Shown here: piece after piece, positions 9,605-26,064 of the stretch
How the letters are laid out: each line of letters starts with the position of its first letter
How positions within the stretch are numbered: position 1 is the first letter of the stretch
NCBI GenBank assembly: GCA_016342355.1
Contig: JAEINP010000039.1
Span: forward strand, 1 to 49,116
From: Desulfatibacillum sp.
GTDB taxonomy: Bacteria > Desulfobacterota > Desulfobacteria > Desulfobacterales > Desulfatibacillaceae
Length of the DNA: 49,116 nt
Direction: 5' to 3'
Notes under the pieces: generated by a model
Database searches by the model: none
Seen by the model: the letters and a program-made list of their open reading frames with translations, nothing else
What the model was told of the DNA's origin: nothing
Made by a program: the position numbers and the translations under genes

Positions 9605-12466
9605 TCATGTAGAATCAGTCGACTCCTTCCAAGTGACCAAAGCCAACTCTTTTTTCAATAACAGGAATTCCGTTTCAATGGTCTCCTGCAACGCTCTGGC
9701 GGCTTCCAGGTCCCCGCTGACTCCAGCCTGTTCCATATCCTTGGTAGCCTGCACCATGGCCAAGGCCCCGATATTGGAAGAAGCCCCTTTAACGGCATGG
9801 GCATTGTTGCTCACCCCGGCGAGGTCCTGCGCCTTCACAAAAGCCCTGAGTTCCACAATTTTTTTTGGGGTGTCTTCCAGATAGGCCTGGACAATCTCCT
9901 TTGCCAGATCTTCGTCATCCATGAGCCGTTCAAGCAAGCCCTTTTTATCGAAGACAAGAGGAGCGTCACCCCTTTCGTTTGCTACTACTGGGGCGCTGGG
10001 GCTCATGGCATCCTCCATCTGGGCGTCCGGGATCCATTTTACTATCATTTCAACCAGAGCCAACGGCTCCACCGGCTTGGACAGGTAGTCGTCCATTCCT
10101 GCCTGGAGACATTTTTTTCTGTCTCCAGCCATGGCATGGGCCGTCATGGCAATGACGGGAATGTCCGGGTTCAGGACGCGGGAGCGGCGACTACGTATGC
10201 GCCGGGTGGCTTCGTACCCGTCCATGTCAGGCATTTGGCAGTCCATGAGAACCAGGGTATACCTTCTGTTGCATAGGGCTTCCACGGCTTCTCTTCCATT
10301 GGAAACCGCATCGGCCTGCAAGCCCAGTTTTCCCAGTATGCTCAAGGCTACCTTTTGGTTAACAGGGTTATCCTCAGCAATCAAAATATGCACATCCGGC
10401 CTTTTTAAAGGCTTAAGGGCCGGGGCAAAGTACCTGGGTTTCCGGGGCTGTTCGTTGGCGTGGTTGCTGTTCAGGGCATTCACCACACTGTCATATAGGG
10501 CGGATTGCTTGACCGGTTTCGTCAGGCAACCCTCAAATCCTGCGTTTCTCATCCTGGAGTCGTCCCATCTCTTGCCCATAAAAGTCATGATAAGCCAGTG
10601 GGTGTCGGCCAGCTTGATATCCTTGCGGGCCAATCGGCCCAGAGTTTCCCCATCCATGTCCTTGAGCTTGTTGTCGGCAATGGCTATGGCAAAGGGGTCT
10701 TGTGATGCCATGGCCAAGCGTAGTTTTTCCAGGGCTTCGCCGCCGCCCTGAGCTTCTTCCGGCCTGCATGACCATGATTTGAGCATGTTCACCAAATGGA
10801 GTCTGGCGCCTGCATTTTCCGCCACAACCAGGATGCGCTTGTTCCGGACAGCCAGGTATGGGGAGATTCCTTCTCTTTTCCAGGCCTGTTTGCCGAATTG
10901 GGCAGTGAACCAGAAGGTGGAACCTTTTCCCTCCCCACTTTCCACGCCGATTTCGCCCTTCATCATTTGGGCCAGTTTTTTGGAGATAGCCAGGCCCAGG
11001 CCGGTTCCTCCATAATTCCGTGTGGTGGATGCCTCTGCCTGGGTAAATGCGTCAAACAGGGAACGTTGACGGCTGGGGGCGATCCCTATGCCTGTGTCGG
11101 TTACTGAAAATTTCAGGACCAAAAGCTCGGGCTCTTGTTTTATCATGGTGACATGGATGGTGATGCTGCCGTGGGCGGTGAACTTGATGGCATTGTTGGC
11201 CAGATTCAGCACTATCTGACGAAGTCTTACCGGATCTCCAGTGAGGCCAAAGGGAACTTTTGGGTCTATAAGGCAGACAAATTCCAGGCCTTTTTCCTGA
11301 GCTCGCAGGGCAACAATGTCGCTGGCCTCCTCCAGGGTGCTTCGGAGGTCGAATTCGATGGCCTCCAGGTCCAGCTTCCCGGCCTCTATCTTGGAAAAAT
11401 CCAGAATATCGTTGATGATGTCCAGCAAGGCATGGGCGCTGTTGCGCACGGTTTCCGCATATTCCCTTTGTTCCCGATTCAATTGTGTTTCCAAAAGCAG
11501 GCTGATCATGCCCACAACCCCGTTCATTGGTGTGCGGATTTCGTGGCTCATGTTGGCCAGAAACTCACTTTTTGCCATGTTGGCCAGTTCCGCCTGCACT
11601 GCAAGGCGATGGGAATCCTCTATGAGTAATTCCAACTGGCGGTTGGCATCTTCGATCTCTTCCTTGGATCTTCTAAGAGCCTGTTCCACATCCTTTTGGT
11701 GGGTAATATCCAGCAAAATACACTGGAAACCCATTATGTGGCCGCCGGAGCGGGAGATAGGGTGAATATTGGTGGAAAAGCAACGCTTCCGATTATCAGG
11801 GAGCAGCACCCAGTCCTCATAAATCCCCCCTAAACCCTTTTGGAGGATGCCATGGAAACGTTTGATGAACCGTTCTGCATCCTCATGCGGGAAAAGGTCC
11901 CGGATGCCCATGCCGGCAATATTTTCCTTTGCCACGCCATACAAATTGGCGGCCGCCTCATTAGCCAGGATCACCCGGTCCGTGGTATCGAAAAACAGGA
12001 TTGCCGACCCTGCGTTTTCAATCAAAACCCGGTACCTTTCCTCGCTCTCCCTGACTTTTTCTTCAAATTCAATGTTGTCGCGGGTGAGTTTGGCTTTTTC
12101 CAGGGCATTGATGATGGCATGATACAGGATGTCCAGGTCGTTGATGGGTTTGATCAGGTAATCCCAGGCCCCGGTCCTGAGGGCATTTACCGCCTCGCTC
12201 ACACCCCCTGCACCAGAGATGACAATGACCGGAGTGAGGGGGGATTCCTTTGTGATTTCCTTCAGAACCTGGAGTCCGTCCATTTCGGGCATGCGCAGGT
12301 CCAGGAGCACCAAGTCAGGGCTTTCCTGGCGGAATTTGTCAAGCCCCATTCTGCCGTTGTCTGCAAGGATCACGTCAAAGTCATAGTCCTGCAAATATTC
12401 TGAGATGCTGCGTTGGATGGCCTTTTCATCGTCTACAGCTAGAATTTTGATGGGCTTGTCTGTCAT
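9605..12466 (-). CDS. cytoplasmic hybrid histidine kinase (REC-PAS-HisKA-HATPase-REC-REC-Hpt)
   Basis: 953-aa phosphorelay kinase without membrane segments. An N-terminal receiver (acceptor near D56) precedes a PAS domain (~145-260), HisKA with H308 ([13 protein letters not shown]), a HATPase core ([21 protein letters not shown]), two receivers and an Hpt domain (H890 in [13 protein letters not shown]). The middle receiver has kept its acceptor aspartate ([11 protein letters not shown]) but has AE where the acidic DD pair should be, so phosphorylation there may be weak or absent. The last receiver (D742) is intact. ATG at 12466 is chosen over an upstream in-frame ATG because GGAAGGA lies just before it. 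The core is paralogous to the 6169-9471 kinase. Confidence 0.92.
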
Positions 12467-12541
12467 GATTCCTTCCGGGAACATCATAAGGTATTCTCAC
12501 ATTTACCGAACTCCGTGCACAAACACAAGGGCCTTTATGAA

Positions 12542-15199
12542 TCAATAAATAGAATGCGACGCCCCAAGCAGGGGTTTGACCGTGGAGACCAACTGGGCCA
12601 GGTCAACAGGCTTTTCCAGGCAGGCATGGGCTCCGGCTTCCAGAAAGGGATTGCACCCCTGGGTGGAAAGACTGTCGGTAAGGACCACCAAAGGAATATT
12701 TTTCCAGTCTTCGACGCCCCGAATGGCCGTAATCACTCTATTGTGGTCGGAAATGGCCAGTTCCCCGCTAAGGATGACCAGGGTAATGTTTCCATTTTCC
12801 TTCAGTCGCTCCATGATTTCATAGGGGGTCCTGGCAACCAAAACCGTGGAACCGGCGTCCCCCAATACCTTGCGCAGGGTGAAAACATGCCGCATATCCC
12901 GGTCGGCCAACAGAATGGTTTTATCCTGGAAAAATGCAGCATCTTCGGCTCGGATCTCCAGCAATCCCGGCTTTTCCGGTGAGATCAATGGCCTTGCTTC
13001 CATGGTGCACAAGGGCTCCCACGGGCGCATAATGGGCGGTTCAGCAGAGCAGGAATATGTTTCCGGCACGACCAGGGTAAATATGCTGCCCACTCCTGGC
13101 TCGCTTTCCGCCTGGATTGCCCCGCCAATAAGACGGGCAATTTCCCGGGAAATAGTCAGGCCCAAGCCCGTGCCTCCGAATTCCCGGCTGGTGGTTCCAT
13201 CGGCCTGGGTAAAGGCCTCGAAGATATCCTCCATTTTATCCTTGGGGATGCCTATGCCTGTGTCCATTACGGAAAAGGCTATGCATCTCGTAGGATCGTA
13301 GCCCGGAAGCAGCCCCCTGCTTTTGGGGTTGGGGCGCTGAACCTGCAGAATTATAGTTCCTTGCTTGGTGAATTTGAGGGCATTGGAAAGGAAATTACGC
13401 AACACCTGCTCCAAACGTTGGCTGTCTGATTGAACGGGCCGGAACATTTCATCGCCCATCTTTACCTGGAAATCCAGGCCCTTGTTCCTGGCAAGGGGCA
13501 GGAACTCCCGTTCCATGTCCAGGACAAAATTGCGCAGGTCAACCGGGGCGATGTTCACAGTCATCTTGCCCGCCTCTATCTTGGAAAGATCCAGAACCTC
13601 GTTGATGAGTGTGAGCAGGGCCTTGCCCGAGGACTGAATGGCCTGGACGCACTCCAAATCGCCGGAGGTGAGGCTTTTTTCCCTGTTTTCATATAAAATG
13701 CCCGAAAGTAGAATGATGCTGTTCAGGGGCGTGCGGAGCTCGTGGGACACATTGGCAAGGAACTGGGATTTGTACATGCTGCCGATTTCCAGGTCTCTGG
13801 CCCGCGCTTCCAGTAGTTCGTGGGCGTTTTGCAGTTCCACGTTTGTTTTTTCCAACTGCTGATAGGCGTCCTGCAATTTTTTTTCCGAGGCCTTGCGTTC
13901 CGTCACATCCCTGCCACTGAACACCACCCCTCCAACGCCTGCCACATCCAGTTGGGAATTCATGACGCCTTCCACCCAACACCAGGCTCCGTCCCTGTGT
14001 TTGAAGCGCACTCCTTCCACTTTGATGGGTTTTCCGGGGTTGGCTATAGCCTGTTCCAAGGCTCTTTCCACCATGGAGACATCCCGGGGATGAATATTGC
14101 GGCTGGGGTATTGGCCCATGACCATGGCAGTGTCGTATCCGTAAGCGGAAAACACGGAAGGGCTGGCATAGGTGTAGGTGTTGTCCTGTCCGATGATAAG
14201 GGTGATATCCGACGAGTTTTCCGTCAATGCCCTGAAGCGTTCTTCGCTGGCAGTAAGTGCCTGGGCGGCGTGAATATCCCTTAAAGCCTCCACGCCGTGG
14301 GAGGCGATAAGCGTGGTCAGTTCCAAGTCCGTGTCTGTGAAAGGCTGGCCTGCCAATCTGGAAAGAAGGCCGACGCCCTGGATGTTTTTGTCCGGTGAAT
14401 AAATGGGAACCGTGAGCACGGAACTCCCCTCCCATCCCCGGGCGGCTGAATCCATGAAACCCAGCCCCCCTTCCCAGCTCTCCACCAATAGCCCGTGGCC
14501 TAATCGCCAATTCATTTCCGCCAGGGCATCCAAAGAATCAGGCAGGGGGATGTGCTGGTCCGTTCCTTCGGGGCCCGTGGAGCGCATGAGGACCAGTTCG
14601 TTCTCTTTCCGGAGAAACAGGCGTCCCTGGCTGGCCCGGGTGTTTTCCATGAGGGCGCTCAAAAGCATGGTGCATAACTCATCTTCGGTTTTGCAGGAGG
14701 TAAAAAACAGAGTACAGTCAGTGATGTGCTTGAGCCGCCTGCTGTATTCCAGGAGCTTTTCAGACCGCTCCTGGACCAGGGCTTCCAGGTTTTCCTGGTA
14801 GCGCTTGTTTTCCCTGCGCAGGCTGGCGCGTTCCAGGTTTTTTCTGACCGTATGAAGCAGGATGCTAAGGCTTTCGATGGGTTTGAAAATATAGTCCCAC
14901 GCACCCATTTTCAGGGCGTTTACCGCATCCCGAGCCACCCCGGCTCCAGATACAACGATCAGAGGGATGTCCGGGGCCTCCTTCCCCATGATGGAAAGGA
15001 CTTCCAAGCCGTCCATTTCGGGCATGCGCAGGTCCACCAAAACCAGGTCGGGTTTTTCCCTGCGGAAGATTTCCACGCCCATCCTGCCGTTCTCAGCTTC
15101 CAGGACATGATAGCCGCTATCCTCCAAAAAGGAGGCGAAACTCCACCGGATGGCGTCTTCATCGTCAATAGTCAGAATAGTCGCGGGGGCGCCTTCCAT
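12542..15199 (-). CDS. cytoplasmic hybrid histidine kinase (REC-GAF-PAS-HisKA-HATPase-degenerate REC)
   Basis: 885-aa kinase. An N-terminal receiver (acceptor near D56, [13 protein letters not shown]) is followed by a coiled coil (~110-155), a GAF-like domain (~165-310), a PAS domain (~320-435), HisKA with H486 (NVSHELRTPLNS), and a HATPase core (NFLSNALKF, DTGIGIP, GGTGLGLT). The C-terminal receiver-like domain has serine where the phosphoacceptor aspartate belongs (LVILSGEL) and only one acid of the usual pair, so it is probably not phosphorylated. There is no Hpt domain. ATG at 15199 follows GAGGA; an open frame continues upstream but has no ribosome site and would overlap the regulator gene. 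The N-terminal receiver resembles that of the 9605-12466 kinase. Confidence 0.9.
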   Translation of the reverse strand: MEGAPATILTIDDEDAIRWSFASFLEDSGYHVLEAENGRMGVEIFRREKPDLVLVDLRMPEMDGLEVLSIMGKEAPDIPLIVVSGAGVARDAVNALKMGAWDYIFKPIESLSILLHTVRKNLERASLRRENKRYQENLEALVQERSEKLLEYSRRLKHITDCTLFFTSCKTEDELCTMLLSALMENTRASQGRLFLRKENELVLMRSTGPEGTDQHIPLPDSLDALAEMNWRLGHGLLVESWEGGLGFMDSAARGWEGSSVLTVPIYSPDKNIQGVGLLSRLAGQPFTDTDLELTTLIASHGVEALRDIHAAQALTASEERFRALTENSSDITLIIGQDNTYTYASPSVFSAYGYDTAMVMGQYPSRNIHPRDVSMVERALEQAIANPGKPIKVEGVRFKHRDGAWCWVEGVMNSQLDVAGVGGVVFSGRDVTERKASEKKLQDAYQQLEKTNVELQNAHELLEARARDLEIGSMYKSQFLANVSHELRTPLNSIILLSGILYENREKSLTSGDLECVQAIQSSGKALLTLINEVLDLSKIEAGKMTVNIAPVDLRNFVLDMEREFLPLARNKGLDFQVKMGDEMFRPVQSDSQRLEQVLRNFLSNALKFTKQGTIILQVQRPNPKSRGLLPGYDPTRCIAFSVMDTGIGIPKDKMEDIFEAFTQADGTTSREFGGTGLGLTISREIARLIGGAIQAESEPGVGSIFTLVVPETYSCSAEPPIMRPWEPLCTMEARPLISPEKPGLLEIRAEDAAFFQDKTILLADRDMRHVFTLRKVLGDAGSTVLVARTPYEIMERLKENGNITLVILSGELAISDHNRVITAIRGVEDWKNIPLVVLTDSLSTQGCNPFLEAGAHACLEKPVDLAQLVSTVKPLLGASHSIY

Positions 15200-15356
15200 C
15201 AATTCCTCATGAACAGGCCTGGGGCCATGGCAGCCGGTTTCCGTTCCGATAGTGGGCGGTCCGGTTACAGGTTGAAGGTTATGGAAAGATGAGTCTTCAA
15301 AAAAACATTGCAATTTTCGGGCCAGGAATGGATCTGTTCTGGCCGGGCAAAACACT

Positions 15357-18300
15357 CTATTTGCGCTTGATCCCCAGCTTTTTCATCCGGGAAAACAAGG
15401 TATTGTGGTTGATTTGCAACAATTCGGCAGCTCCGCCAGGCCCCCGAACCTTGCCGCCTGTCCTTTTTAGCGCCCAGGCTATGTGGTTGCGTTCGTTTTC
15501 TTCCAGGGTGGCGGCCTCTCTCTCCTGAGAAAGGGCCGTTGCCCCCTGAATCAAATCCGGGATTTCCAGGCGTGCGCCAGAGCTCAATATGGCGCTCCGT
15601 TCAATGACATTCTCCAGTTCCCGCACATTGCCGGGCCATTCATAGGCGATGAGCTTTTCCAGGTCCTCGTGGTTCAACGTGCCCCGGGGCTTTCCCAAAT
15701 GCCTGGCATGGCGATTTATAAAATAGTCCACCAACAGGGGAATGTCCGCTTTTCTCTCCCGCAGGGGGGGGATTTTCAGGGACAGGACATTTAGCCGATA
15801 ATAGAGGTCTTCCCGGAACTTTCCGCTTTTCACGTCCTGCCGTAAGTCCCGGTTGGTGGCGGCCAAAAGGCGAAAGTCCGAGCGCAGGGTGGCCCTTCCC
15901 CCTACCCGTTCGAATTCCTTGTTCTGGAGCACCCTGAGCAGGCGCACCTGGACCTCGTGGGAAATATCGCCGACTTCGTCCAGAAACAAGGTGCCCCCGT
16001 CAGCCAGCTCAAACCTGCCCAGCCGCCTTTGGTCGGCGCCGGTAAAAGCGCCCTTTTCATGGCCGAAAAGTTCTGTGGCGATGAGCCCTTCAGGGAACAT
16101 GCTGCAATTGACCCGGATAAAGGCCTTGCCGGCCCTGGCGCTCTGGTCGTGGATGGCGCTGGCTATCAATTCCTTGCCCACCCCGGTTTCTCCCAGAATG
16201 AGAACTGTGGAATCGGTCCCCGCCACCTTTTTAACATCTGCCAACACCTTGCGCACAGGAGCGCAATCTCCCACAAATTCCACGGGAGGTTGGAATTCGC
16301 TCTGCTGCTCCTCCAAATACCTTTTTTCCTCTTCCAATTTCCGGATTAAAGCCCGGTTTTGCTCATGGACCCGGGCGTTGTCCAGGGCAATGGCTGCCTG
16401 GGCCGAGAAGAAGCCCAAAATCCGTATGTCCGACTCCTTGAGGGCGCTGGGAAAAATCCGGTTGTCCACATACAGGACCCCCAACACGGTTTCACGAAAT
16501 TTCAGGGGCACGCAAATGCAGGAATGGACAGCCTTGTTTTTTAAGGGATCGGACTGCCTGGGCGCCTCGGTCAGGCGAAACCTTGCCCGCCCTGTAAAAG
16601 CGGCTTCCCGGATCATCTTCATGCTGGATTGGAATTCAGGCCGGGAAATGTCCTGCTCCATAAGGTTCCTTGCTGCCCGGAGGACCACAGCAGGCTTTCC
16701 CTTTTCCTTGTTGACCAGAAAGACTGCTCCCCGTTCCGCGCCGGTAATTCTGTTTACCGTGGCAAGGATATGGCGCACCAAATCCCGGTCGTTGCGGATG
16801 GTGGCCAGTTCCTGACCCAGCTTCATGATTTCCTCCAGCAGGTTTTTGTCCGTGCGCAGGTCCTTGAGCAAAAAACGCAGATTGTCAGGAACCTGGTCGT
16901 AAAGAAAAGTGTCCAGCAGTTCGGCGCTTTTCAGCATGGTGTCCTTGGCCTTTTTTTCCTGCCCCATGGACAGGTACAGGCGGGCCAGGTCCATGCGGGT
17001 GCGGGCCAATTGGATTTCATGGCCGGATTCCTCCAGCCACTTTTCCGAGAGTTTCATGGACCGTAAAACCTTGTCTTTGGCGCCGCCCCTTTTTTCCTCC
17101 AAAAGGGCCTGGTAACGGTAGGCGCCGCCTTTGATCAAAATGTTGCGGCTTTTCTGCCATTCCCTGATTTCCTCAATAGCCAGGGCGTCCTTTACGCCGG
17201 GGAGTTGCCCCTGCTCCATGGCCCAGAACATTTCCGCGTTCTGGTATATGTGCGTTTCTATCATGATGCCCTTTTCCCTGGTGATGCGGATAGCTTCTCC
17301 AAGATACTTAACCGCCTTATCCTTGTTATTGTTGCGGAAATGGGCCAGGGCCAGATTAAGGCTGATGAGTACGGAATTATAGGTGTTGGATGTCTGGGCG
17401 GCATGATCCAGGGCCAGGTCCAGGTATTGGATGGCTTCCTCATACTGCCCCAGCTCTATGAGAAGACTGCCGATATGGTATCCCACATAGCTTCCCACGT
17501 ACAGATCCCCGGTGCTGCGGCATTTCTCATAAATGGCGTCCATGAGCCCCATGCCCCGCTTTATCTGCCCGTTAAAGGCATAGCAAACCCCCACAACCTG
17601 GGCTGACAACAGGGGAAAGCGGCCTTTGGGATATTTATCGATATCAGAGACCACTTCCTCGTAGTTGCGGATGACTTCCCGCAGCCGCCCTTGGGCGTAC
17701 AGGAAAAAAGTGCTCAAAAAGACCGCGGAACGCTTCAGGGACGGGTCGTCGATTTTTTCCGCCAGGGCCCAGCCCCTGTCGAAGTGGCGCAGGGCCTGGT
17801 TAAAATGGGAGCAAAACCATTCATTTTTGGCCAGGTGCATCTCCAAAAGGGCGGTCCGGGAGTCATCCCCCCGCTTTCTCGCTTTTTGGATGGCTGTTTT
17901 CAAGGGAGGGACCGTGGCCTCCACGTCCGGCGCCAACTCCACCATTTTGGAAACAGCAATAGCCGCACTGGTGAAAAGCTCGTAACCTTCCGGTGTATCG
18001 GAGTTCTCAAGGTCATCGATAATTCTCTGGTAGCAGAGAAGCGCCTTCTGGTGCCGGTGGGCTTTTCGATGAATATCCCCGGCTTTCAGGAGAGTGCGGC
18101 ACCCTTCCTCATCGTTCTCCAAATGAAGCAGGTGGTTGGAGGCCGCCAGGACAGCATCCTCCCGGGGGCCCATTTCCCTGAAATAGATCCCCGCAATGGA
18201 CCTGTGCCACAATTCCCGATCTTCCTTGGGCATGGAATGGGCGATCTCTTTGCGGAGGGTGTCATCCTTGAATCTGTAGAGGCCAGGGCCGTGTTTTTCC

Positions 18301-18473
18301 AGAATTCCTTTTTCAAAAAGGTTTTCCAGTTCCTGGAGAATTTCCGAGGCCTTGAGGCCGGACATTTCCAAAATCCAGTCCACGGAAAAGGCGCCCTCAA
18401 AAAGGGCCATGAGCCCCGCCACTCCGGGAGGAGCATGCAACGAGCGGAAAGAGGAGAGATTCTGGTCAGTCAT
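15357..18473 (-). CDS. sigma-54 activator with winged-helix/TPR, GAF, AAA+ and Fis domains
   Basis: Transcription activator of RNA polymerase with sigma-54, 1038 aa. Residues ~15-110 look like a winged-helix segment of the kind that follows STAND ATPases. TPR-like helices run to ~500 (IGSLLIELGQYEEAIQYLDLAL is one), a GAF domain spans ~540-690, then a coiled coil. The AAA+ domain starts near 731 with Walker A GETGVGKE, the sigma-54 contact loop GAFTGA, Walker B LFLDEVG and arginine finger region YYRLNV. A Fis-type helix-turn-helix ends the protein (GGAAELLQINHNTLFSRMKKL). It has no receiver, so it is not a classical partner of the kinases downstream; it probably senses a ligand or protein. 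ATG at 18473 follows GGAG by six bases. It is divergent from the acyl-CoA operon, its likely target. Confidence 0.93.
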   Translation of the reverse strand: MTDQNLSSFRSLHAPPGVAGLMALFEGAFSVDWILEMSGLKASEILQELENLFEKGILEKHGPGLYRFKDDTLRKEIAHSMPKEDRELWHRSIAGIYFREMGPREDAVLAASNHLLHLENDEEGCRTLLKAGDIHRKAHRHQKALLCYQRIIDDLENSDTPEGYELFTSAAIAVSKMVELAPDVEATVPPLKTAIQKARKRGDDSRTALLEMHLAKNEWFCSHFNQALRHFDRGWALAEKIDDPSLKRSAVFLSTFFLYAQGRLREVIRNYEEVVSDIDKYPKGRFPLLSAQVVGVCYAFNGQIKRGMGLMDAIYEKCRSTGDLYVGSYVGYHIGSLLIELGQYEEAIQYLDLALDHAAQTSNTYNSVLISLNLALAHFRNNNKDKAVKYLGEAIRITREKGIMIETHIYQNAEMFWAMEQGQLPGVKDALAIEEIREWQKSRNILIKGGAYRYQALLEEKRGGAKDKVLRSMKLSEKWLEESGHEIQLARTRMDLARLYLSMGQEKKAKDTMLKSAELLDTFLYDQVPDNLRFLLKDLRTDKNLLEEIMKLGQELATIRNDRDLVRHILATVNRITGAERGAVFLVNKEKGKPAVVLRAARNLMEQDISRPEFQSSMKMIREAAFTGRARFRLTEAPRQSDPLKNKAVHSCICVPLKFRETVLGVLYVDNRIFPSALKESDIRILGFFSAQAAIALDNARVHEQNRALIRKLEEEKRYLEEQQSEFQPPVEFVGDCAPVRKVLADVKKVAGTDSTVLILGETGVGKELIASAIHDQSARAGKAFIRVNCSMFPEGLIATELFGHEKGAFTGADQRRLGRFELADGGTLFLDEVGDISHEVQVRLLRVLQNKEFERVGGRATLRSDFRLLAATNRDLRQDVKSGKFREDLYYRLNVLSLKIPPLRERKADIPLLVDYFINRHARHLGKPRGTLNHEDLEKLIAYEWPGNVRELENVIERSAILSSGARLEIPDLIQGATALSQEREAATLEENERNHIAWALKRTGGKVRGPGGAAELLQINHNTLFSRMKKLGIKRK

Positions 18474-18583
18474 AAATGTCTCCGGTCCTTGGCGGGCAAG
18501 GGTTTGCATTCAACGGGGATGATGGTGAAAATATAGAATGGAAAGGGATGTGAGGTCAAGGGTTTTGTCCGATATCTAAAGCA

Positions 18584-18676: not shown

Positions 18677-18693
18677 TTGGAATGCATTGTGCA
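18677..18693 (+). promoter_or_regulatory. candidate sigma-54 (-24/-12) promoter of the acyl-CoA operon
   Basis: TTGG at 18677-18680 and GTGCA at 18689-18693 place GG and GC exactly ten bases apart, the spacing needed by sigma-54. Against the consensus TTGGCAC-N5-TTGCA the -24 GG and -12 GC are kept, while the CAC and one T are not. It faces the acyl-CoA genes and the divergent gene encodes a sigma-54 activator. Confidence 0.45.
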
Positions 18694-18954: not shown

Positions 18955-20106
18955 ATGTTCGCATTTACCAAAGCACAACAGGCAATACGCAAAGCCGCCA
19001 AAGACTTTGCCAAAGGGGAACTGGACAAGGAAACCACCAGCCAATGGGAAAAGGACAGCGCCTTTCCCAAAGACGTGTGGGAAAAAGCCGCGGAACTGGG
19101 CTTTTTGGGCATCCATTTGCCGGAAAAGTACTCGGGAGGAGGGCTGGGCATGCTGGACAGCGCCCTCATCATGGAAGAACTGTGCCGCAAGGATTCCACG
19201 GTGGGCGTGGCTTTAGGATATGCCTCCCACGCTTCGGAGTGCTTGCTGCACTGGGGAAGCGACGCCCTTAAAGATGCTTTTTTGCCCAAGGTAACCGAAG
19301 GGGAAACGCTTTCCGCCGGCGCCTTTGGCGAAAGCCAGCGCGGAGGCGATTTTTCCGCGACCGCCACCACCGCTGTCAAACAAGGGGACGAATGGGTCAT
19401 CAATGGCCTTAAAACCCATGTGCCCAACGGCGGCCTGGCCGGGTTTTATGTCGTCCTTTGCCAGACCGACCCGGAAGCGGCCAAGCCGGAGCAAAGCGCC
19501 AGCCTCATTTTGGTGGAAGCCAACCGTCAGGGCCTTTCCACGGAAAGCCTGGGCCGTAAACTGGGCGCCAACATGACCCCCTCCGCCAACCTCATCTTGA
19601 ATAACGTGCGGGTTCCCCTGGATAACCTGATAGGCAAGGAAGGCCAGGCTTTGGCCTATGCCCGGGAGTTTACCGACGAAAATAAAATCATCCTGGCGGC
19701 CCAGGCCCTGGGCACGGCCCTGGGTTCCTACGACCGCATGATGGATTACGTCAAGGGCCGGGAGCAGTTTGGCCGCAAGCTGGCCCAGTTCCAGATAAGC
19801 CAGCATAAAATCGCCGACATGGCTACCAAGATCGAACTGTCGGCCCTCATTACTTATAAGGCCGCCTGGGTCCGGGACCAGGGCAAGATGGACAATACCC
19901 TGTGTTCCATGGCTAAAATGACCGCCTGCCGGACGGCCATGGAAGTGAGCGCCCACTCCATCCAGCTTTTGGGGGGATACGGCTATATGACCGAATACGA
20001 GGTGGAACGGTATTACCGGGACGCCAAGACCCTGGAAATCATGGCCGGGACTGCTGGTGTCCAAAAGGATATCATCGCCCAAAACGCCATTGGCAAAATT
20101 CGCTAA
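18955..20106 (+). CDS. acyl-CoA dehydrogenase family protein lacking the usual catalytic glutamate
   Basis: 383-aa member of the acyl-CoA dehydrogenase fold, normally oxidising acyl-CoA to 2-enoyl-CoA with FAD. The C-terminal family blocks are kept (REQFGRKLAQFQ, LLGGYGYMTEYEVERYYRDA). The base motif YEGT reads MAGT (A364), and the alternative base position used by isovaleryl- and long-chain enzymes is N243. The FAD-loop motif EPGAGSD reads ESQRGGD. It may therefore be the non-catalytic partner of the next gene product, or use another residue (E242 is adjacent). ATG at 18955 follows GGGAG; an in-frame ATG 51 bases upstream is less likely. It is the first gene of the operon. Confidence 0.88.
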   Translation: MFAFTKAQQAIRKAAKDFAKGELDKETTSQWEKDSAFPKDVWEKAAELGFLGIHLPEKYSGGGLGMLDSALIMEELCRKDSTVGVALGYASHASECLLHWGSDALKDAFLPKVTEGETLSAGAFGESQRGGDFSATATTAVKQGDEWVINGLKTHVPNGGLAGFYVVLCQTDPEAAKPEQSASLILVEANRQGLSTESLGRKLGANMTPSANLILNNVRVPLDNLIGKEGQALAYAREFTDENKIILAAQALGTALGSYDRMMDYVKGREQFGRKLAQFQISQHKIADMATKIELSALITYKAAWVRDQGKMDNTLCSMAKMTACRTAMEVSAHSIQLLGGYGYMTEYEVERYYRDAKTLEIMAGTAGVQKDIIAQNAIGKIR

Positions 20107-20133
20107 ACCACTTCACACCAAGATAACCGGAGA

Positions 20134-20147
20134 AGCCCCCGGGGGCT
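20134..20147. repeat. GC palindrome between the two acyl-CoA dehydrogenase genes
   Basis: AGCCCCC followed directly by GGGGGCT, a perfect 14-bp palindrome 25 bases before the next start codon. No T-run follows. It could form a short stem in the mRNA; no function is evident. Confidence 0.4.
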
Positions 20148-20171
20148 CGACAGGCATAATAAGGAGAAATC

Positions 20172-21314
20172 ATGGGAGTTTTAAAATATACCGAGGATCA
20201 TGAGCGGTTCCGCCTGAATCTGCGCGAATTTCTGGCCAGGGAAGTGGTTCCCCACACTATGGAATGGGAGGAAGCCCACATTGTGCCCAAGGAAGCATGG
20301 AAGAAAATGGGCAAGGCGGGTTTCTTGTGCACGGCGATCTCCAAGGAATACGGCGGATTGGGGGGCGACTTCCTCTATTCCGTCATCGTCACCGAAGAAA
20401 TGGCCGCCATTTCCCAGGCTGGTCTGTGCGCCATGCTCCATAGCGACATCGTGGTTCCTTACATCAATGCATACGGAACCGAGGCCCAGAAGAAAAAATA
20501 CCTCCCCGGTTGCGTGTCCGGCGACATCATCACTGCCGTGGCCATGACCGAACCCGGCGCAGGCAGCGACGTGGGAGGGCTGGAAGCCACTGCTGAAGAA
20601 GATGGGGATGAAATCATCATTAACGGAACCAAAACCTTTATCTCCAATGGCCTCAATTGCGGGCTTGTGGTCCTGGCAGCCCGAAATCCTGAAATTGAGG
20701 ACAAGCACGCAGGCGTCTCCCTGTACCTGGTGGAGGACGGTACACCCGGCTTCACCCGGGGCCGCCACCTGGATAAAATGGGCATGCACAGCCAGGACAC
20801 GGCGGAGTTGTTTTTCTCCAACTGCCGGATTCCCAAGGAAAACATCCTGGGCCAAAAGGGGGCAGGCTTTCTCATGCTCATGGAAAAACTCCAGCAGGAG
20901 CGCCTCATGAGCGCCATCGCCAACGTGGCGATAGCTGAGAATGTCCTCAAGGAGGCTATAGCCTATTGCCGCGAGACCCTGGTGGACGGAAAACCCTTGG
21001 GCAGATCCCAGGCCGTCAAGTTCGCCCTGGCCGAAATGACCACGGATGTCAACCTCAACCGGGCCTTTTTGGACAACCTCATCGCAGACCACGCGGCAGG
21101 CAAGGACGTGACCGCCCAGACCATGATGTCCAAGTTCGCCAGCTCCGAGATGGTCAACACCCAACTTTCCACCATTATGGACCTTTTCGGCGAATACGGC
21201 CTGTTGGAATCAAGCCCCATAGCCCGTTATTTCCGGGATCAGCGCATCACCACCATTTTTGCGGGCACCACCGAAATCATGAAAACCATTATCGCCAAGT
21301 TCCTGGGCCTTTAG
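20172..21314 (+). CDS. acyl-CoA dehydrogenase with helix-G glutamate
   Basis: 380-aa FAD enzyme oxidising an acyl-CoA to the 2-enoyl-CoA and passing electrons to ETF. The FAD motif TEPGAGSD is intact. The YEGT motif reads FAGT, but E243 (KLQQERLMSAIA) falls at the position of the catalytic glutamate of isovaleryl-CoA and long-chain acyl-CoA dehydrogenases (by-eye alignment), so the enzyme should be active. That geometry is used by enzymes with bulky or branched substrates, though substrate cannot be read directly. AAGGAG precedes the ATG by six bases. The gene sits 65 bases after the degenerate dehydrogenase, and the two products may form a heteromer. Confidence 0.92.
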   Translation: MGVLKYTEDHERFRLNLREFLAREVVPHTMEWEEAHIVPKEAWKKMGKAGFLCTAISKEYGGLGGDFLYSVIVTEEMAAISQAGLCAMLHSDIVVPYINAYGTEAQKKKYLPGCVSGDIITAVAMTEPGAGSDVGGLEATAEEDGDEIIINGTKTFISNGLNCGLVVLAARNPEIEDKHAGVSLYLVEDGTPGFTRGRHLDKMGMHSQDTAELFFSNCRIPKENILGQKGAGFLMLMEKLQQERLMSAIANVAIAENVLKEAIAYCRETLVDGKPLGRSQAVKFALAEMTTDVNLNRAFLDNLIADHAAGKDVTAQTMMSKFASSEMVNTQLSTIMDLFGEYGLLESSPIARYFRDQRITTIFAGTTEIMKTIIAKFLGL

Positions 21315-21381
21315 GCACCGGGATTTGGCTGTTTGCAAATGTTATATGAAGATTAACCATCGAGAAACAAAGGAGTTTATC

Positions 21382-22203
21382 ATGGAAAAAATGCTGGCTG
21401 GCAAGGTTGCCATTATTACGGGTTCGGGCCGGGGAATTGGAAAAGCCGCGGCTGTTTTGTTTGCGGCGGAAGGCGCGAAAGTCGTTGTGAGCGATATTGA
21501 TCCTGTTCCTGCTGAAGAAACCGTGGCGGAAATCAAGGCCGCTGGCGGCGAAGCCATTGCATATGCAGGCGACGCCACTGCCGATGATTTTGCCGAAGGA
21601 ATTGTCAAGGCTGCCGTGGACGCCTGGGGCGGACTGCACATCATAGTGAACAACGCCGGTTACACCTGGGACGCCGTCATCCATAAAATGACCGACAAGC
21701 AGTGGGACGCCATGATGGACATCCATCTAAAGACCCCTTTCCGGCTCATCCGCGCTGCAGCGCCCTATTTCAAGGACGCCGCTAAAAAAGAAATGGCCGA
21801 AGGCAAGCTGGTTTCCCGCAAGATAGTCAATATCTCCTCCATTTCCGGCACCCGCGGCAATGCAGGCCAAGCCAACTATTCCTCGGCCAAGTCCGGCCTT
21901 TTGGGCTTGACCCAGACCATGGCCCAGGAATGGGGCCGTTACAATGTTCAGTCCAACGCCGTGGCCTACGGCTGGGTGGAAACACGCCTTACAGCCGCCA
22001 AGGAAGCAGCCGGCGCCGTGGAACGGGAAGGCGAATCCGTCGCCCTGGGCATTCCGGACAAACAGCGCCAGATGATGAAAATGGTCATTCCCATGGGCCG
22101 CGGCGGAACACCCGAAGAGGCCGCAGGCGTGATTCTGTTCCTGGCATCTCCCTTATCCAACTATGTATCCGGTCAGTGCATTGAAATGACTGGCGGCATG
22201 TAG
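21382..22203 (+). CDS. short-chain dehydrogenase, probable (3R)-hydroxyacyl-CoA dehydrogenase
   Basis: 273-aa Rossmann-fold oxidoreductase. The nucleotide motif is TGSGRGIG, NNAG follows near residue 92, and the catalytic serine and YxxxK appear as SISGT...YSSAK. The tetrad asparagine position is histidine in DIHLKTPF, as seen in the dehydrogenase part of peroxisomal multifunctional enzyme 2. That family oxidises (3R)-hydroxyacyl-CoA, which fits the MaoC-type hydratases in the operon. ATG at 21382 follows AAAGGAG; upstream in-frame starts lack a ribosome site. It would supply the 3-oxoacyl-CoA for the thiolase. NAD versus NADP use is not certain; the SDID after strand 2 suggests NAD. Confidence 0.88.
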   Translation: MEKMLAGKVAIITGSGRGIGKAAAVLFAAEGAKVVVSDIDPVPAEETVAEIKAAGGEAIAYAGDATADDFAEGIVKAAVDAWGGLHIIVNNAGYTWDAVIHKMTDKQWDAMMDIHLKTPFRLIRAAAPYFKDAAKKEMAEGKLVSRKIVNISSISGTRGNAGQANYSSAKSGLLGLTQTMAQEWGRYNVQSNAVAYGWVETRLTAAKEAAGAVEREGESVALGIPDKQRQMMKMVIPMGRGGTPEEAAGVILFLASPLSNYVSGQCIEMTGGM

Positions 22204-22265
22204 AATATAACCCGGCATATTCCCTCAAGGAAGATGCCTTTATGAACCCTTTTACATACAGATAA

Positions 22266-22297
22266 CCCGGGCTGCCCGGGCCGGTTTTTCGGTCCGG
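22266..22297 (+). repeat. GC-rich hairpins before the HMGCS-like gene
   Basis: CCCGGG-CTG-CCCGGG (22266-22280) is followed by CCGG, a T5 run and a second CCGG. It resembles a weak or partial terminator and could reduce transcription into the downstream genes. The loop is short, so folding is uncertain. Confidence 0.35.
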
Positions 22298-22313
22298 ATG
22301 CCCATTCCACACA

Positions 22314-22328
22314 GTGCGATAATCGCAC
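22314..22328. promoter_or_regulatory. GTGCGAT-A-ATCGCAC palindrome, possible operator
   Basis: A perfect 15-bp dyad 21 bases before the start of the HMGCS-like gene, between the GC hairpins and the ribosome site. Size and symmetry suit a dimeric repressor; no family can be assigned. Confidence 0.4.
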
Positions 22329-22349
22329 AGGATAGCTGAAGGAGGTCCA

Positions 22350-23807
22350 ATGGCTGGAATAGTTGCATATGGCGGTTACGTGCCGCGCTACCGGTTAAAC
22401 CGTGGCTTGGTGTATGGCGCCATGGGATGGATGAATCCCGCTAATATCACCAATGCCAGAGGTGAAAAAGCGGTTGCGAATTTTGATGAAGACAGCATCA
22501 CCATGGCTGTGGCCGCGGGTATTGATGCGTTAAAAGGTATGGATCGCAACACCGTGGGCGGCGTGTACTTCGCCTCCACCTCCATGCCTTACAAGGAAAG
22601 GCTCAACGCCGGTATCATCACGGCTGCCCTGGGGTTGAACGACCAGATCCGCGCTGCGGATTTCTCCGGCGGCATCAAGGCCGGAACCACGGCTCTTTTG
22701 GCCGCCCTGGAAGGGGTTGCCGCCAAGGGCGTGGACAATGTGCTGGTTACGGCTTCCGACGCCCGGCTTGGCAAACCCGCCTCTCCCCAGGAAATGATTT
22801 TCGGCGACGCCGCCGCTTCTTTGCTGGTTGGTTCGGAGAATGTCATCGCCGAATTCAAGGGCTCCTTTTCCACCACCTATGATTTCGTGGATCATTACCG
22901 TGGAGAAAACGCCAAGTATGACCGCCAGTGGGAAGACCGCTGGATCCGCGACGTGGGCTTCGCCCAATTGGTTCCCGAAGCCGTGAACGGCCTGCTGGAA
23001 AAATACGGCTTGGCCATGACCGATTTCAACAAGGTGGTCTACCCCTGCCATTACGGAGCTGCCCGCAAAGGCCTTAACAAAAAATTCGGCATCACTCCTG
23101 AAATGGAGCAGTCCAACCTCCAGGTGGAAATCGGGGAAACCGGCACTCCCCATTCCCTGGTCATGTTTGTCAAGGCCCTGGAAGACGCCAAACCCGGCGA
23201 CAAGATTTTGCTGGTGAGCTTTGGCAGCGGCTGCGACGCCCTGTATTTTGAAGTGACCGAAAACATCACCAAGTTGGCCCCCCGCGCCGCCATCTCCGGA
23301 AGCCTGGCCAACAGAGCTGACCTTGATAACTACACCAAGTACCTTATCTGGCGCGACATCATGCCCGGAGACGCTGGCCTCAGGAGCGAAGAAGACCTGT
23401 GGACCCGTTGGTCCCAACTTTGGCGTAAAAGAAGGGAAGTCCTGGGTCTGTGGGGCACCAAGTGCCAGGCCTGCGGCACCATCCAATATCCCAAGCAACG
23501 CATTTGCGTGAACCCGGATTGCGGTGTGCCCGACAAAATGGATGAATACTGCTTTTCCGACAAAGTGGGTAAAATCGCCAGCTACACCGGCGACAACCTG
23601 GCCGCCTCGGTCAATCCCCCGGCCATTTACGGCCAGGTGATTTTTGAAGAGGGCGGAAAGTACATGTTTGATTTTACGGATTGCGACCTGGATTCCCTGG
23701 CCACGGGCATGCCCGTTGTGATGAGTTTCCGGAGGAAATATACCGATAAGCATAGGGACATTGCGGGATATTTCTGGAAAGCAGTTCCCAAGAAAGAGGA
23801 GGCATAA
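22350..23807 (+). CDS. HMG-CoA-synthase-like protein fused to a Zn-ribbon/OB domain, nucleophile missing
   Basis: 485-aa fusion. Residues ~1-350 follow the archaeal/bacterial HMG-CoA synthase fold, and ~355-480 are a DUF35-type domain with a zinc ribbon (C372, C375, C386, C391) and OB fold. By eye, SESxPY of archaeal enzymes reads STSMPY (catalytic Glu to T77), and ACKAGT reads GIKAGT (catalytic Cys to I109). The histidine is kept (H234, YPCHYGA), as is FGSG. The synthase reaction therefore looks impossible. In archaea, thiolase, DUF35 and HMG-CoA synthase form one complex; here the fusion lies directly before the thiolase gene (2-base gap) and may serve as its structural or CoA-channelling partner. 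It starts after GAAGGAGG. Confidence 0.82.
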   Translation: MAGIVAYGGYVPRYRLNRGLVYGAMGWMNPANITNARGEKAVANFDEDSITMAVAAGIDALKGMDRNTVGGVYFASTSMPYKERLNAGIITAALGLNDQIRAADFSGGIKAGTTALLAALEGVAAKGVDNVLVTASDARLGKPASPQEMIFGDAAASLLVGSENVIAEFKGSFSTTYDFVDHYRGENAKYDRQWEDRWIRDVGFAQLVPEAVNGLLEKYGLAMTDFNKVVYPCHYGAARKGLNKKFGITPEMEQSNLQVEIGETGTPHSLVMFVKALEDAKPGDKILLVSFGSGCDALYFEVTENITKLAPRAAISGSLANRADLDNYTKYLIWRDIMPGDAGLRSEEDLWTRWSQLWRKRREVLGLWGTKCQACGTIQYPKQRICVNPDCGVPDKMDEYCFSDKVGKIASYTGDNLAASVNPPAIYGQVIFEEGGKYMFDFTDCDLDSLATGMPVVMSFRRKYTDKHRDIAGYFWKAVPKKEEA

Positions 23808-23809
23808 TC

Positions 23810-25015
23810 ATGGCTGACGGAATTAGAGACAAGGTCGCCATCCTGGGCATGGGATGTACCAAGTTCGGCGAACGGTGGGACTGCAGCGGGGAAGACCTCA
23901 TGGTGGAGTCTTTCCTGGAATGCCTGGCGGACGCAGGCATTGAAAAAAAGGAAATCCAGGCGGCTTATCTGGGAGTCCATATTGACGAAGTAAACGTGGG
24001 CAAGGCAGGAACCCCTCTGGGCTCGGCTCTCAAGCTCCCTTTCATTCCCATCACACGGACCGAGAACTTTTGCGCCACAGCCACGGAAGCCTTCAGGGCC
24101 GCCTGCTATGCAGTGGCCGCCGGGGCTTACGACATTGTTTTGGCCCTGGGCGTGGAAAAGCTCAAGGATACAGGTTACGGCGGGCTTCCCGGCGGCGCCG
24201 CCTTCGGCACGGAAATGTTCATGCGCGGCTCCAACGCTACGGCGCCGGGCCTTTTCGCCCAGTTGGCCACGGCATACTCGGCCAAGTATGACATTCCCAT
24301 GTCGAAGATCAAGGACGCCATTGCGCATATTTCAGCCAAAAGCCATTACAACGGCTCCCTGAATCCCAAGGCTCACCTGAGAAAGGCCGTGCCTGAAGAA
24401 GCCATCAAGGCCGCACCCATGATCGCCTATCCTCTGGGGCTTTTTGACTGCTGCGGTGTGTCCGACGGATCCGCCGCCGCCATCGTCACTACCCCGGAAA
24501 TCGCCAAGAGCCTGAAAAGAAACCAGGATTTGATCAAGGTGAAAGCCCTCCAGATTTCCGTAAGTTCCGGCGAGGAAGAAATCTATACCAAGTGGGACGG
24601 CGCACATTTCGCCACCACCCGGGTGGCGGCTACCAAGGCCTATAAAGAAGCCGGGATCACCAATCCCCGGGAAGAAGTGAGCATGATGGAAGTCCATGAC
24701 TGCTTTTCCATCACGGAATTCGTGACCATGGAAGACGTCCACATCTCCCCCAAGGGCGGAGCTTACGAAGACGTCATGAGCGGATTTTACGACCTGAACG
24801 GCCAAGTGCCCTGCCAAGTGGACGGAGGCCTGAAATGCTTCGGCCATCCCATCGGCGCTTCCGGCCTCAGGATGATCTACGCCATGTACGAGCAACTCCT
24901 GGAAAGAGTACCGGACGAACGGAAGGTCAAGAACGCCAGGTTCGGCCTTACCCACAATCTGGGCGGAACCCCGGCCAAGAACGTGGCCGCCATTTCCATC
25001 ATCGGCAGGGACTAG
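23810..25015 (+). CDS. SCP2-type thiolase (3-oxoacyl-CoA thiolase or related lyase)
   Basis: 401-aa thiolase of the sterol-carrier-protein-2 branch. The nucleophile is C88 in TENFCATATEAF, H296 lies in EVHDCFSITEF, H346 in GGLKCFGHPIGASG, and the C-terminal HNLGG loop is present, so it appears active. Members of this branch either cleave 3-oxoacyl-CoAs with CoA or act as retro-aldolases, and commonly need a DUF35 partner protein. Here that domain is in the preceding gene product. It is the last step of the proposed beta-oxidation route. The ribosome site AGGAGG lies in the end of the previous gene. Confidence 0.88.
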   Translation: MADGIRDKVAILGMGCTKFGERWDCSGEDLMVESFLECLADAGIEKKEIQAAYLGVHIDEVNVGKAGTPLGSALKLPFIPITRTENFCATATEAFRAACYAVAAGAYDIVLALGVEKLKDTGYGGLPGGAAFGTEMFMRGSNATAPGLFAQLATAYSAKYDIPMSKIKDAIAHISAKSHYNGSLNPKAHLRKAVPEEAIKAAPMIAYPLGLFDCCGVSDGSAAAIVTTPEIAKSLKRNQDLIKVKALQISVSSGEEEIYTKWDGAHFATTRVAATKAYKEAGITNPREEVSMMEVHDCFSITEFVTMEDVHISPKGGAYEDVMSGFYDLNGQVPCQVDGGLKCFGHPIGASGLRMIYAMYEQLLERVPDERKVKNARFGLTHNLGGTPAKNVAAISIIGRD

Positions 25016-25090
25016 GTTTGTCCGAAACCCCGCGCCAGTATCGCTTTCCTCTGTAATATGAAAGGAAAGCGCCTGTGTTTACATAAAAAA

Positions 25091-25120
25091 TGCCCGGCCG
25101 GTTGACTAATCGGCCGGGCA
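25091..25120. repeat. perfect 10-bp GC hairpin with upstream A-run
   Basis: TGCCCGGCCG and CGGCCGGGCA are perfect inverted copies with a 10-base loop. An A6 run precedes the left arm, so on the - strand it reads as a stem plus T6; on the + strand no strong T-run follows. In the operon mRNA it is more likely a stabilising or processing hairpin between thiolase and hydratase genes. Confidence 0.55.
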
Positions 25121-25144
25121 TTGCCTGGAAAGGAGGTCATGACC

Positions 25145-25636
25145 ATGGCTGAAAATTTCCAAATTTCCAAAGAAATGCAAGCTGTTATAGGGTGGGAATC
25201 TTCTCCCTGGGACTGCGAAGTCACCGCCACCAGTGTGCGGGCTTTCGCCCGGGGCGTGGGCTATACTGATTTGGTGTATTATGATGTGGAAACCGCTAAA
25301 AAGGCGGGGTACCGCAATCTGCCCGCCCCTCCCACCTACCTGGGAACGCCCATTTTTATCCCGGGGAAGAGCGACGACTACCTGCCCTTTCCCCCTGATT
25401 CCATGCCGCCCCTGGAACACGGTTTGACGGGGCTTTTGGACGGTGGAACCGAAACCGAATATTTCGAGACCATCTGCGCCGGAGACACCCTCACCTGTGT
25501 GAATAAACTGGCGAGCCTCAATACCAAGGAAAGCAAAGGGCTGGGAACCATGCTCATCATGAGCACCGAGGCCACCTACACCAACCAGGACGGAAAGGTG
25601 GCCGCCATCCAGCGCGCCCAGGTCATTCTTTACTAA
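25145..25636 (+). CDS. MaoC N-terminal-type hydratase subunit without catalytic Asp/His
   Basis: 163-aa hot-dog fold protein of the MaoC_dehydrat_N type (PPTYLG near residue 63 fits the PPTF motif). The hydratase-2 signature GDxNPLHxD reads GYTDLVYYD (Y40 and Y45 replace Asp and His), so it should not catalyse hydration alone. The next gene encodes a MaoC protein with the intact motif. Such degenerate/intact pairs form heterodimeric (R)-specific hydratases in actinobacteria (HadAB/HadBC, ChsH1-ChsH2). ATG at 25145 is chosen because AGGAGG lies eight bases upstream; an ATG six bases earlier would be too close. Confidence 0.8.
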   Translation: MAENFQISKEMQAVIGWESSPWDCEVTATSVRAFARGVGYTDLVYYDVETAKKAGYRNLPAPPTYLGTPIFIPGKSDDYLPFPPDSMPPLEHGLTGLLDGGTETEYFETICAGDTLTCVNKLASLNTKESKGLGTMLIMSTEATYTNQDGKVAAIQRAQVILY

Positions 25637-25650
25637 GAGGGAGGTACAGC

Positions 25651-26064
25651 ATGGCAATTTCATGGGAAGCAATCAAAGAAGGGGACATTATCCCGGAACT
25701 GAAAAAATGCCCGGGCGTCACCCAACTGGTAAAGTACGCCGCAGGGTCCGGCGACTTCAACCCCCTGCATCACGACTATAATTTTTTCCAGTCCAAGGCC
25801 ATAGGCACCATCATTGTCCACGGACGCTTTAAATACGCCACCATCGGCGAATGCGTGTCCAACTGGCTGGGCCATGCAGGGCGCATTCAAAAAATTTCCT
25901 GCCAATATCGGGGCATGGATTTTCCGGACCAGGAATTCACCTGCAAAGGCGCCGTGGCACGCAAATACGAGGAAAACGGCCAAAAACTGGCCGAGCTTTC
26001 CGTCTGGACCGAAAATGCGGAAGGCAAAAACACCACTCCAGGCCTTGTGGTTGTGCAGTTTTAG
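25651..26064 (+). CDS. MaoC-like (R)-specific enoyl-CoA hydratase
   Basis: 137-aa hot-dog hydratase. The catalytic signature GDFNPLHHD gives D35 and H40, followed by the usual substrate-side segment IIVHGRF. It should add water to a trans-2-enoyl-CoA to give the (3R)-hydroxyacyl-CoA, the form used by the SDR at 21382. GAGGGAGG precedes the ATG. It lies 14 bases after the degenerate MaoC-type gene, which is its likely partner, and is the last gene of the operon. Confidence 0.88.
   Translation: MAISWEAIKEGDIIPELKKCPGVTQLVKYAAGSGDFNPLHHDYNFFQSKAIGTIIVHGRFKYATIGECVSNWLGHAGRIQKISCQYRGMDFPDQEFTCKGAVARKYEENGQKLAELSVWTENAEGKNTTPGLVVVQF

Follow-up and report, generated by a model that had tools for sequence, protein, structure and literature searches.

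A seven-gene operon on the forward strand of a 49,116-nucleotide stretch of Desulfatibacillum sp. DNA (GenBank assembly GCA_016342355.1, contig JAEINP010000039.1, positions 1 to 49,116; hereafter the window) probably encodes one full turn of (R)-type beta-oxidation carried out by heteromeric enzymes. As judged by their residues, its first two genes, here termed AcdA and AcdB, carry complementary halves of one flavin adenine dinucleotide (FAD) site. Seven open reading frames (ORFs) proposed in a preliminary description were confirmed at 18955-26064 and encode, in order, the acyl-CoA dehydrogenase relatives AcdA and AcdB, a short-chain dehydrogenase/reductase (SDR), a protein resembling 3-hydroxy-3-methylglutaryl-CoA synthase (HMG-CoA synthase, HMGS), a thiolase, and two MaoC-type proteins (MaoN and MaoC), with intergenic gaps of 65, 67, 146, 2, 123 and 14 bp. 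All seven genes recur in unchanged order in a second genome of the genus (G001), with identities of 80, 86, 93, 92, 95, 85 and 87% in operon order.

Two dehydrogenases with complementary FAD half-sites

Acyl-CoA dehydrogenases bind the flavin ring of FAD with residues of their own chain, and residues of the dimer partner bind the ADP end. We take the motifs T-E-P and [FW]-I-[TS]-N, derived from structures of the medium-chain enzyme (MCAD), to mark the flavin half-site and R-x-x-F-G and Q-x-x-G-G to mark the ADP half-site. AcdA (P0001; 18955..20106, forward strand), which has the acyl-CoA dehydrogenase fold, is degenerate in the flavin half (GES/HVPN) and intact in the ADP half (R269, F272, Q337, G340-G341). 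AcdB (P0002; 20172..21314, forward strand), a dehydrogenase of the long-chain (LCAD) type, has an intact flavin half (TEP/FISN) and has lost the ADP half (T..D/D..GE). The catalytic base is found in AcdB. AcdB carries E243/A364, and its E243 aligns in phmmer to the catalytic Glu of human LCAD (Gln in the mutant chain 8w0z), which the accessible part of PMC11153573 gives as Glu291. AcdA carries N243/A364 and has no base; its A364 aligns in phmmer to the Glu of short-chain (SCAD)-like chains. The alignments thus confirm the residues from which the preliminary description had concluded that a dehydrogenase without a base (A364/N243) stands beside one with E243.

To follow this pattern across homologs, half-sites were compared in 76 AcdA-family and 97 AcdB sequences, scoring residues 125 and 157 for the flavin half and 269, 272, 337 and 341 for the ADP half. 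Paired AcdA were drawn from the AcdA and AcdB searches and from the HMGS loci (identity to P0001 at least 43%), solitary AcdA were mostly top AcdA matches, and the AcdB sample comprises 30 places taken as loci, further regions and earlier loci, among the matches listed. The 48 AcdA and 48 AcdB found side by side are not one-to-one, since one incomplete AcdB was omitted and one AcdA has two AcdB neighbors. Each AcdA beside an AcdB keeps all four scored ADP-half residues (48/48); both flavin-half residues are present in 2/48 and neither in 30/48. Among AcdB beside AcdA, the flavin half is complete in 48/48, and none of the four ADP-half residues is left in 47/48, with one of four in the remaining sequence. 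Solitary AcdA homologs have the ADP half in 28/28 and the flavin half in 27/28. The lone exception, in locus L061, keeps its Glu, has lost the flavin half and was classed as solitary by distance, although the cluster contains an AcdB behind a CoA ligase.

The base is lost in 39/48 paired AcdA versus 1/21 solitary ones, and in 0/7 of undecidable context, which stand outside the 48/21 comparison and were counted as solitary in the half-site comparison. AcdB retains Glu243 in 98/98. Fisher tests that ignore relatedness gave p values of 1.5e-9 for base loss and 3.8e-17 for the flavin half. Because the pattern is conserved across homologs, it is not a product of chance, and the heteromeric dehydrogenase put forward in the preliminary description is strongly supported by the complementary loss of half-sites.

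The same division is described in the accessible part of PMC11153573 for ChsE4-ChsE5 and ChsE1-ChsE2, in which isoalloxazine, Glu and substrate belong to the alpha chain and the ADP-ribose to the beta chain; here, too, one chain has the flavin half and Glu, and the other the ADP half only. AcdB would accordingly be the catalytic alpha subunit, supplying Glu243 and holding the flavin ring, and AcdA the beta subunit, whose residues would hold the ADP end of that FAD molecule. For the first step of the pathway, we infer an obligate heteromer in which an AcdA-AcdB pair shares approximately one FAD and a single active site. This suggests that several apparently broken acyl-CoA dehydrogenases of this relative of sulfate reducers are half-enzymes in need of a partner, whose role would be misread by annotating one gene or assaying one protein at a time. 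The half-site rule provides a sequence test for split dehydrogenase pairs.

A pseudo-HMG-CoA synthase-DUF35 fusion next to an intact thiolase

The fourth gene (P0004; 22350..23807, forward strand) encodes a pseudo-HMG-CoA synthase in which T77, I109 and P232 sit, by alignment, at the positions of the Glu, Cys and His of the archaeal synthase (HMGCS) 6esq_I. The loss of Glu and Cys had been recognized before; the His is also gone, and the C-terminal fusion to DUF35 had been overlooked. This DUF35 part (23418..23792, forward strand) corresponds to residues 357-481, aligned to 6esq_E with an E value of 8e-14. The C-terminus scores above the cut-off of the Pfam model zf-ChsH2 and below that of OB_ChsH2_C (25.2 bits, cut-off 27.1). 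All four zinc cysteines (372, 375, 386 and 391) are present in 101/101 homologs, counted as distinct sequences (103 rows with two repeats), and Glu at 77, Cys at 109 and His at 232 each occur in 0/101.

The adjoining SCP2-type thiolase (P0005; 23810..25015, forward strand) is intact, as previously described, with C88, H296-D-C298 and H346. It scores over the NF004810 cut-off and matches the archaeal thiolase 6esq_A. Its catalytic residues (C88, HDC and H346) are complete in 86/86 homologs, on which ground we rejected a role as an Ltp2/Sal-type retro-aldolase; in the steroid aldolase CtSal, a YDCY motif replaces HDC (PMC12329534, accessible part). A thiolase gene lies directly downstream of 91/101 pseudo-HMGS homologs, eight others are at a contig end, and two (L114 and L117) have none in reach.

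An HMGS-like protein without Cys and Glu, a DUF35 domain and a thiolase fold with Cys and His together reproduce the composition of the Pseudomonas acylase PhlACB, P0004 being the counterpart of PhlA and PhlB in one chain. According to the accessible part of PMC6392133, PhlA has neither this Cys nor this Glu, catalysis uses residues of PhlC alone, and the binding is mediated by the DUF35 protein PhlB. In the predicted-fold match list for the fusion, which derives from a low-confidence model, PhlA and archaeal HMGCS lead, as they do by sequence. The PhlA precedent and the conserved downstream thiolase support the earlier proposal that the HMGS-like protein is a non-catalytic partner of the thiolase. 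In the fourth step, the thiolase would cleave the 3-ketoacyl-CoA, held via DUF35 to the pseudo-HMG-CoA synthase, which may serve as scaffold and pocket wall.

The module is widespread, with at least 575 confirmed pseudo-HMGS-DUF35 relatives in a scan of genome contigs. The best 80 of these belong, by NCBI phylum, to Thermodesulfobacteriota (35), Myxococcota (17, assigned from record titles, for example 'Deltaproteobacteria bacterium'), Chloroflexota (14), Actinomycetota (6), Bacillota (5) and others (3). A match below 1e-80 was present in 25/59 genomes, including the source genome. Within 8 kb of the 101 homologs, we found a MaoN-MaoC pair in 16 cases and AcdB in 32.

Alternatively, the non-catalytic members could be independent proteins with other activities and not subunits at all, AcdA acting for example as a non-oxidizing acyl-CoA lyase or reductase and the pseudo-HMGS as an enzyme that uses Cys233. 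This cysteine, one position past the lost catalytic His, is kept in 92/101 homologs, and Glu242 is kept in 42/48 paired AcdA. However, Glu242 is equally present in 27/28 solitary AcdA homologs and was therefore rejected as a replacement base, eight different residues take the place of the AcdA base, and the partner-facing FAD residues are strictly kept in all 48 paired AcdA and lost in AcdB. We consider independent activities most improbable.

A putative (R)-specific hydratase pair and SDR

MaoN (25139..25636, forward strand) is a hot-dog protein of the FAS1_DH_region/HadA type without the D-x-N-[PA]-x-H motif, and MaoC (25651..26064, forward strand) is a HadB-type (R)-enoyl-CoA hydratase with D35/H40. 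Both states are invariant, the Asp/His pair being present in 16/16 MaoC and the motif absent from 16/16 MaoN. Adjacent genes of which one encodes a D-x4-H chain and the other a chain without it are the HadAB arrangement, and the HadA and HadB models matched below their cut-offs, consistent with the heteromeric MaoC pair of the preliminary description. MaoN and MaoC would thus form a HadAB-like (R)-enoyl-CoA hydratase for the second step. The third gene (21382..22203, forward strand) was assigned by family models to the SDR-family 3-hydroxyacyl-CoA dehydrogenases (FabG/MFE-2-like); its product would oxidize the (3R)-hydroxyacyl-CoA.

In paralogous clusters, the source genome encodes a 910-aa HMGS-DUF35-SDR-SCP2 fusion and a 703-aa hydratase2-SDR-SCP2 fusion. 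HMGS-DUF35-SDR fusions account for 34/101 pseudo-HMGS homologs, and an MFE-2-like protein lies nearby in 34/101. Because paralogous fusions join pseudo-HMGS-DUF35 to SDR-SCP2, we argue that the SDR probably works next to the thiolase complex. Likewise, an (R)-type, MFE-2-like beta-oxidation, as had been suggested, is supported because these clusters hold both fused forms, from which we infer the R-stereochemistry.

One such cluster (L035, at 7562-16136 of C6:90000-109900 in the source genome) combines a thiolase, both fusions and a TetR-type regulator. Its AcdB has lost the ADP half and has no AcdA neighbor.

Exceptions, orphan subunits and origin of the split

Several observations weigh against the heteromeric beta-oxidation reading. 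Glu364 persists in 9/48 paired AcdA, although in each of these one or both flavin residues are gone and the partner AcdB lacks the ADP half. Both base loss and pairing cluster by phylogeny: the tree of AcdA sequences requires six or more changes of base state, four of them forced by starred branches, and only two changes of pairing. A test of base loss against pairing on independent pairs found two pairs only, which gives it no power. The expected co-occurrence of the pair held in part: 48 AcdA adjoin AcdB, but 30 AcdB lack a dehydrogenase neighbor within 1.5 kb, and 23 of these are ADP-less (the other seven have both halves). The AlphaFold2 (AF2) model of the HMGS-DUF35 fusion is poor (pLDDT, the predicted local distance difference test score, 72.9). 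Finally, the operon itself includes no gene for a CoA ligase or an electron-transferring flavoprotein (ETF), and the flanks of 102 homologous loci, many of them incomplete, gave an ETF-alpha signature in 0/102 and an AMP-ligase signature in 16/102.

Two more ADP-less AcdB without adjacent AcdA are encoded in the source genome itself (C6:97564-98703 and C35:36036-37175). Of the 23 loci with an orphan AcdB that lacks the ADP half, 21 lie in genomes of the surveyed set. An AcdA-family match was found in 21/21 of these versus 206/389 genomes overall, and some of the matches are AcdA paired elsewhere. It is possible that orphan AcdB share an intact AcdA homolog as partner, such as the one at C84:110-1255 in the source genome. 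One genome (G269) encodes both an orphan AcdB (L213) and a solitary AcdA homolog (L149) that has lost the base to Gln; L149 is the only baseless one among the 21 solitary AcdA homologs.

Complementary half-sites also occur in four more neighboring dehydrogenase pairs of the source genome (C136:24171-26412, C38:5660-7939, L255 on C8 and L259 on C7), and in three of the four, the partner with the flavin half has its base at 364 and none at 243. Relationships were examined in a tree with 77 dehydrogenase sequences built by a quick method, with several long branches and with ChsE itself not among them. The 13 paired AcdA make up one starred group, with intact solitary homologs as neighbors; ADP-less AcdB make up another, which neighbors intact AcdB. 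Ten ChsE-type proteins (L059-L062 and L109) are placed in a separate group with a support of 92, which the C136 pair joins (support 81). The ChsE-type label rests on the alpha chain of L060, whose best match is 4x28_A (202 bits). The beta chain of L060 scores highest against SCAD-like 4l1f (181 bits), with 4x28_D behind at 107.5 bits. This tree did not recover common descent with ChsE pairs, and because AcdA and AcdB branch apart from the ChsE-type group, the FAD-site split probably arose independently of ChsE-type pairs.

A further-reaching scenario, which we offer tentatively and regard as unlikely on balance, is a class of split-FAD dehydrogenases that originated in anaerobic Desulfobacterota independently from those of steroid degraders and is coupled to a bacterial 'peroxisome-like' beta-oxidation assembly, in which the pseudo-HMGS links the thiolase to the SDR and SCP2 modules through fusion or binding. 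The pseudo-HMGS would then pass the 3-ketoacyl-CoA from the dehydrogenase to the thiolase, and orphan AcdB would borrow a housekeeping AcdA homolog.

Direction and substrate

The operon could also run in reverse, as a CoA-dependent chain-building system (reverse beta-oxidation or polyketide-like) in which the thiolase/pseudo-HMGS/DUF35 complex condenses, the SDR reduces, the MaoC pair dehydrates and AcdAB reduces the enoyl-CoA. The SDR, MaoN and MaoC indeed match the FabG, HadA and HadB models best, all below cut-off, both dehydrogenases match an acryloyl-CoA reductase model best (318 and 306 bits, below the cut-off of 640), and the relatives of the thiolase complex, PhlACB and the archaeal HMGCS complex, are biosynthetic. 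The MFE-2/SCP2 architecture in paralogous clusters, the LCAD type of the AcdB base, and the CoA ligases or CoA-transferases that adjoin the related clusters L060, L061, L063 and L125 argue instead for degradation, which makes the reverse direction quite unlikely.

The preliminary description had taken the heteromeric architecture to indicate a system dedicated to bulky, branched or aryl acyl-CoA. Steroids and 2-methyl acids are handled by the ChsE, ChsH and MFE-2/SCPx systems (for ChsE, see the accessible part of PMC11153573). The operon resembles these systems, and its close orthologs L059-L062 have an additional ChsE-type pair near the HMGS-DUF35-thiolase genes. However, the proline that begins helix E and widens the cavity in LCAD and ChsE4 is present in 0/97 AcdB; the corresponding column, L85 in the operon's AcdB, is Leu in 89, Phe in 5, Val in 2 and Met in 1. 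In addition, ThnHI, the heteromeric MaoC pair of strain N47, is specific for linear compounds according to the accessible part of PMC12016498. The step from heteromeric architecture to a bulky, branched or aryl substrate thus finds no support here. A search of seven genomes for glycyl radical enzymes (PF02901) yielded no match on C114 or C6, which likewise speaks against a dedicated bulky substrate. We regard such a dedication as conceivable but doubtful. On this search, a link to alkylsuccinate or benzylsuccinate pathways was rejected; in Desulfosarcina alkanivorans (G354), the nearest glycyl radical matches are ~320 kb from its two clusters.

Genomic context

Upstream of the operon, a divergent gene (15357..18509, reverse strand) encodes a sigma-54 activator with TPR, GAF and AAA+ domains, a candidate regulator of the operon. 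In G001, a divergent 1067-aa ORF occupies the matching position, the two having been compared at the sequence start only. A weak candidate sigma-54 -24/-12 site, TGGAATGCATTGTGCA (18678..18693, forward strand), aligns with TGGAATACATTATGCA of G001; matches to the sigma-54 pattern across the window are at chance level, and this single site is kept in the sister species. Ahead of the activator, at 9605-15355, lie two large ORFs that by eye resemble response-regulator/PAS/histidine-kinase proteins. The source genome belongs to one GTDB order with G354, which is identical to Desulfosarcina alkanivorans PL12 over the compared stretch, and this taxonomy agrees with the earlier view of the host as a presumable anaerobe.

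Comparison with known systems

We found no description of the pseudo-HMGS-DUF35 module or the AcdAB pair in the open-access literature, and the accessible parts of PMC5109826, PMC11887813, PMC13101534 and PMC13416013 contain nothing on the gene set. The dehydrogenase pair resembles the alpha2beta2 enzymes ChsE4-ChsE5 (FadE26-27) and ChsE1-ChsE2 (FadE28-29) in combining a chain with flavin half and Glu with a chain that has the ADP half only. The ChsE pairs differ in lineage, AcdB being nearest to 2pg0 and LCAD and AcdA to SCAD-like chains.

For the thiolase module, two systems are close. At the level of modules, PhlACB, a Friedel-Crafts acylase, likewise has an active thiolase-like subunit alongside DUF35 and an HMGS-like protein that lacks Cys/Glu, but HMGS and DUF35 are fused here, and the surrounding genes are for acyl-CoA oxidation. 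The archaeal acetoacetyl-CoA thiolase/HMGCS/DUF35 complex (6ESQ) has the same three modules, all matched by sequence; in contrast to it, the HMGCS catalytic residues are lost here in 101/101. BbsAB, the benzoylsuccinyl-CoA thiolase, also combines DUF35 with a thiolase, the BbsB model matching at 129 of 750 bits, below cut-off. To our knowledge, BbsAB has no HMGS module. The preliminary description had named BbsAB and BbsCD as models; with a pseudo-HMGS module present and a single SDR, we rejected them as the nearest precedent in favor of PhlACB and the archaeal complex.

HadAB, ChsH1-ChsH2 and ThnHI are likewise built of two hot-dog chains, here one with and one without Asp/His; unlike ChsH2 (PMC12329534, accessible part), the MaoC pair has no DUF35. 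The set also resembles peroxisomal MFE-2 and SCPx, with which it shares an SCP2-thiolase module as well as the (R)-hydratase 2, SDR and SCP2 modules that are fused in paralogous clusters. The domain order of MFE-2 differs from that in the fusions, and in the operon, the functions are carried by separate proteins to which a pseudo-HMGS-DUF35 has been added. Taken together, the parts belong to known kinds, and two of them appear to be novel variants: the lineage of split dehydrogenases and, in the paralogous clusters, the fusion of pseudo-HMGS-DUF35 to SDR-SCP2.

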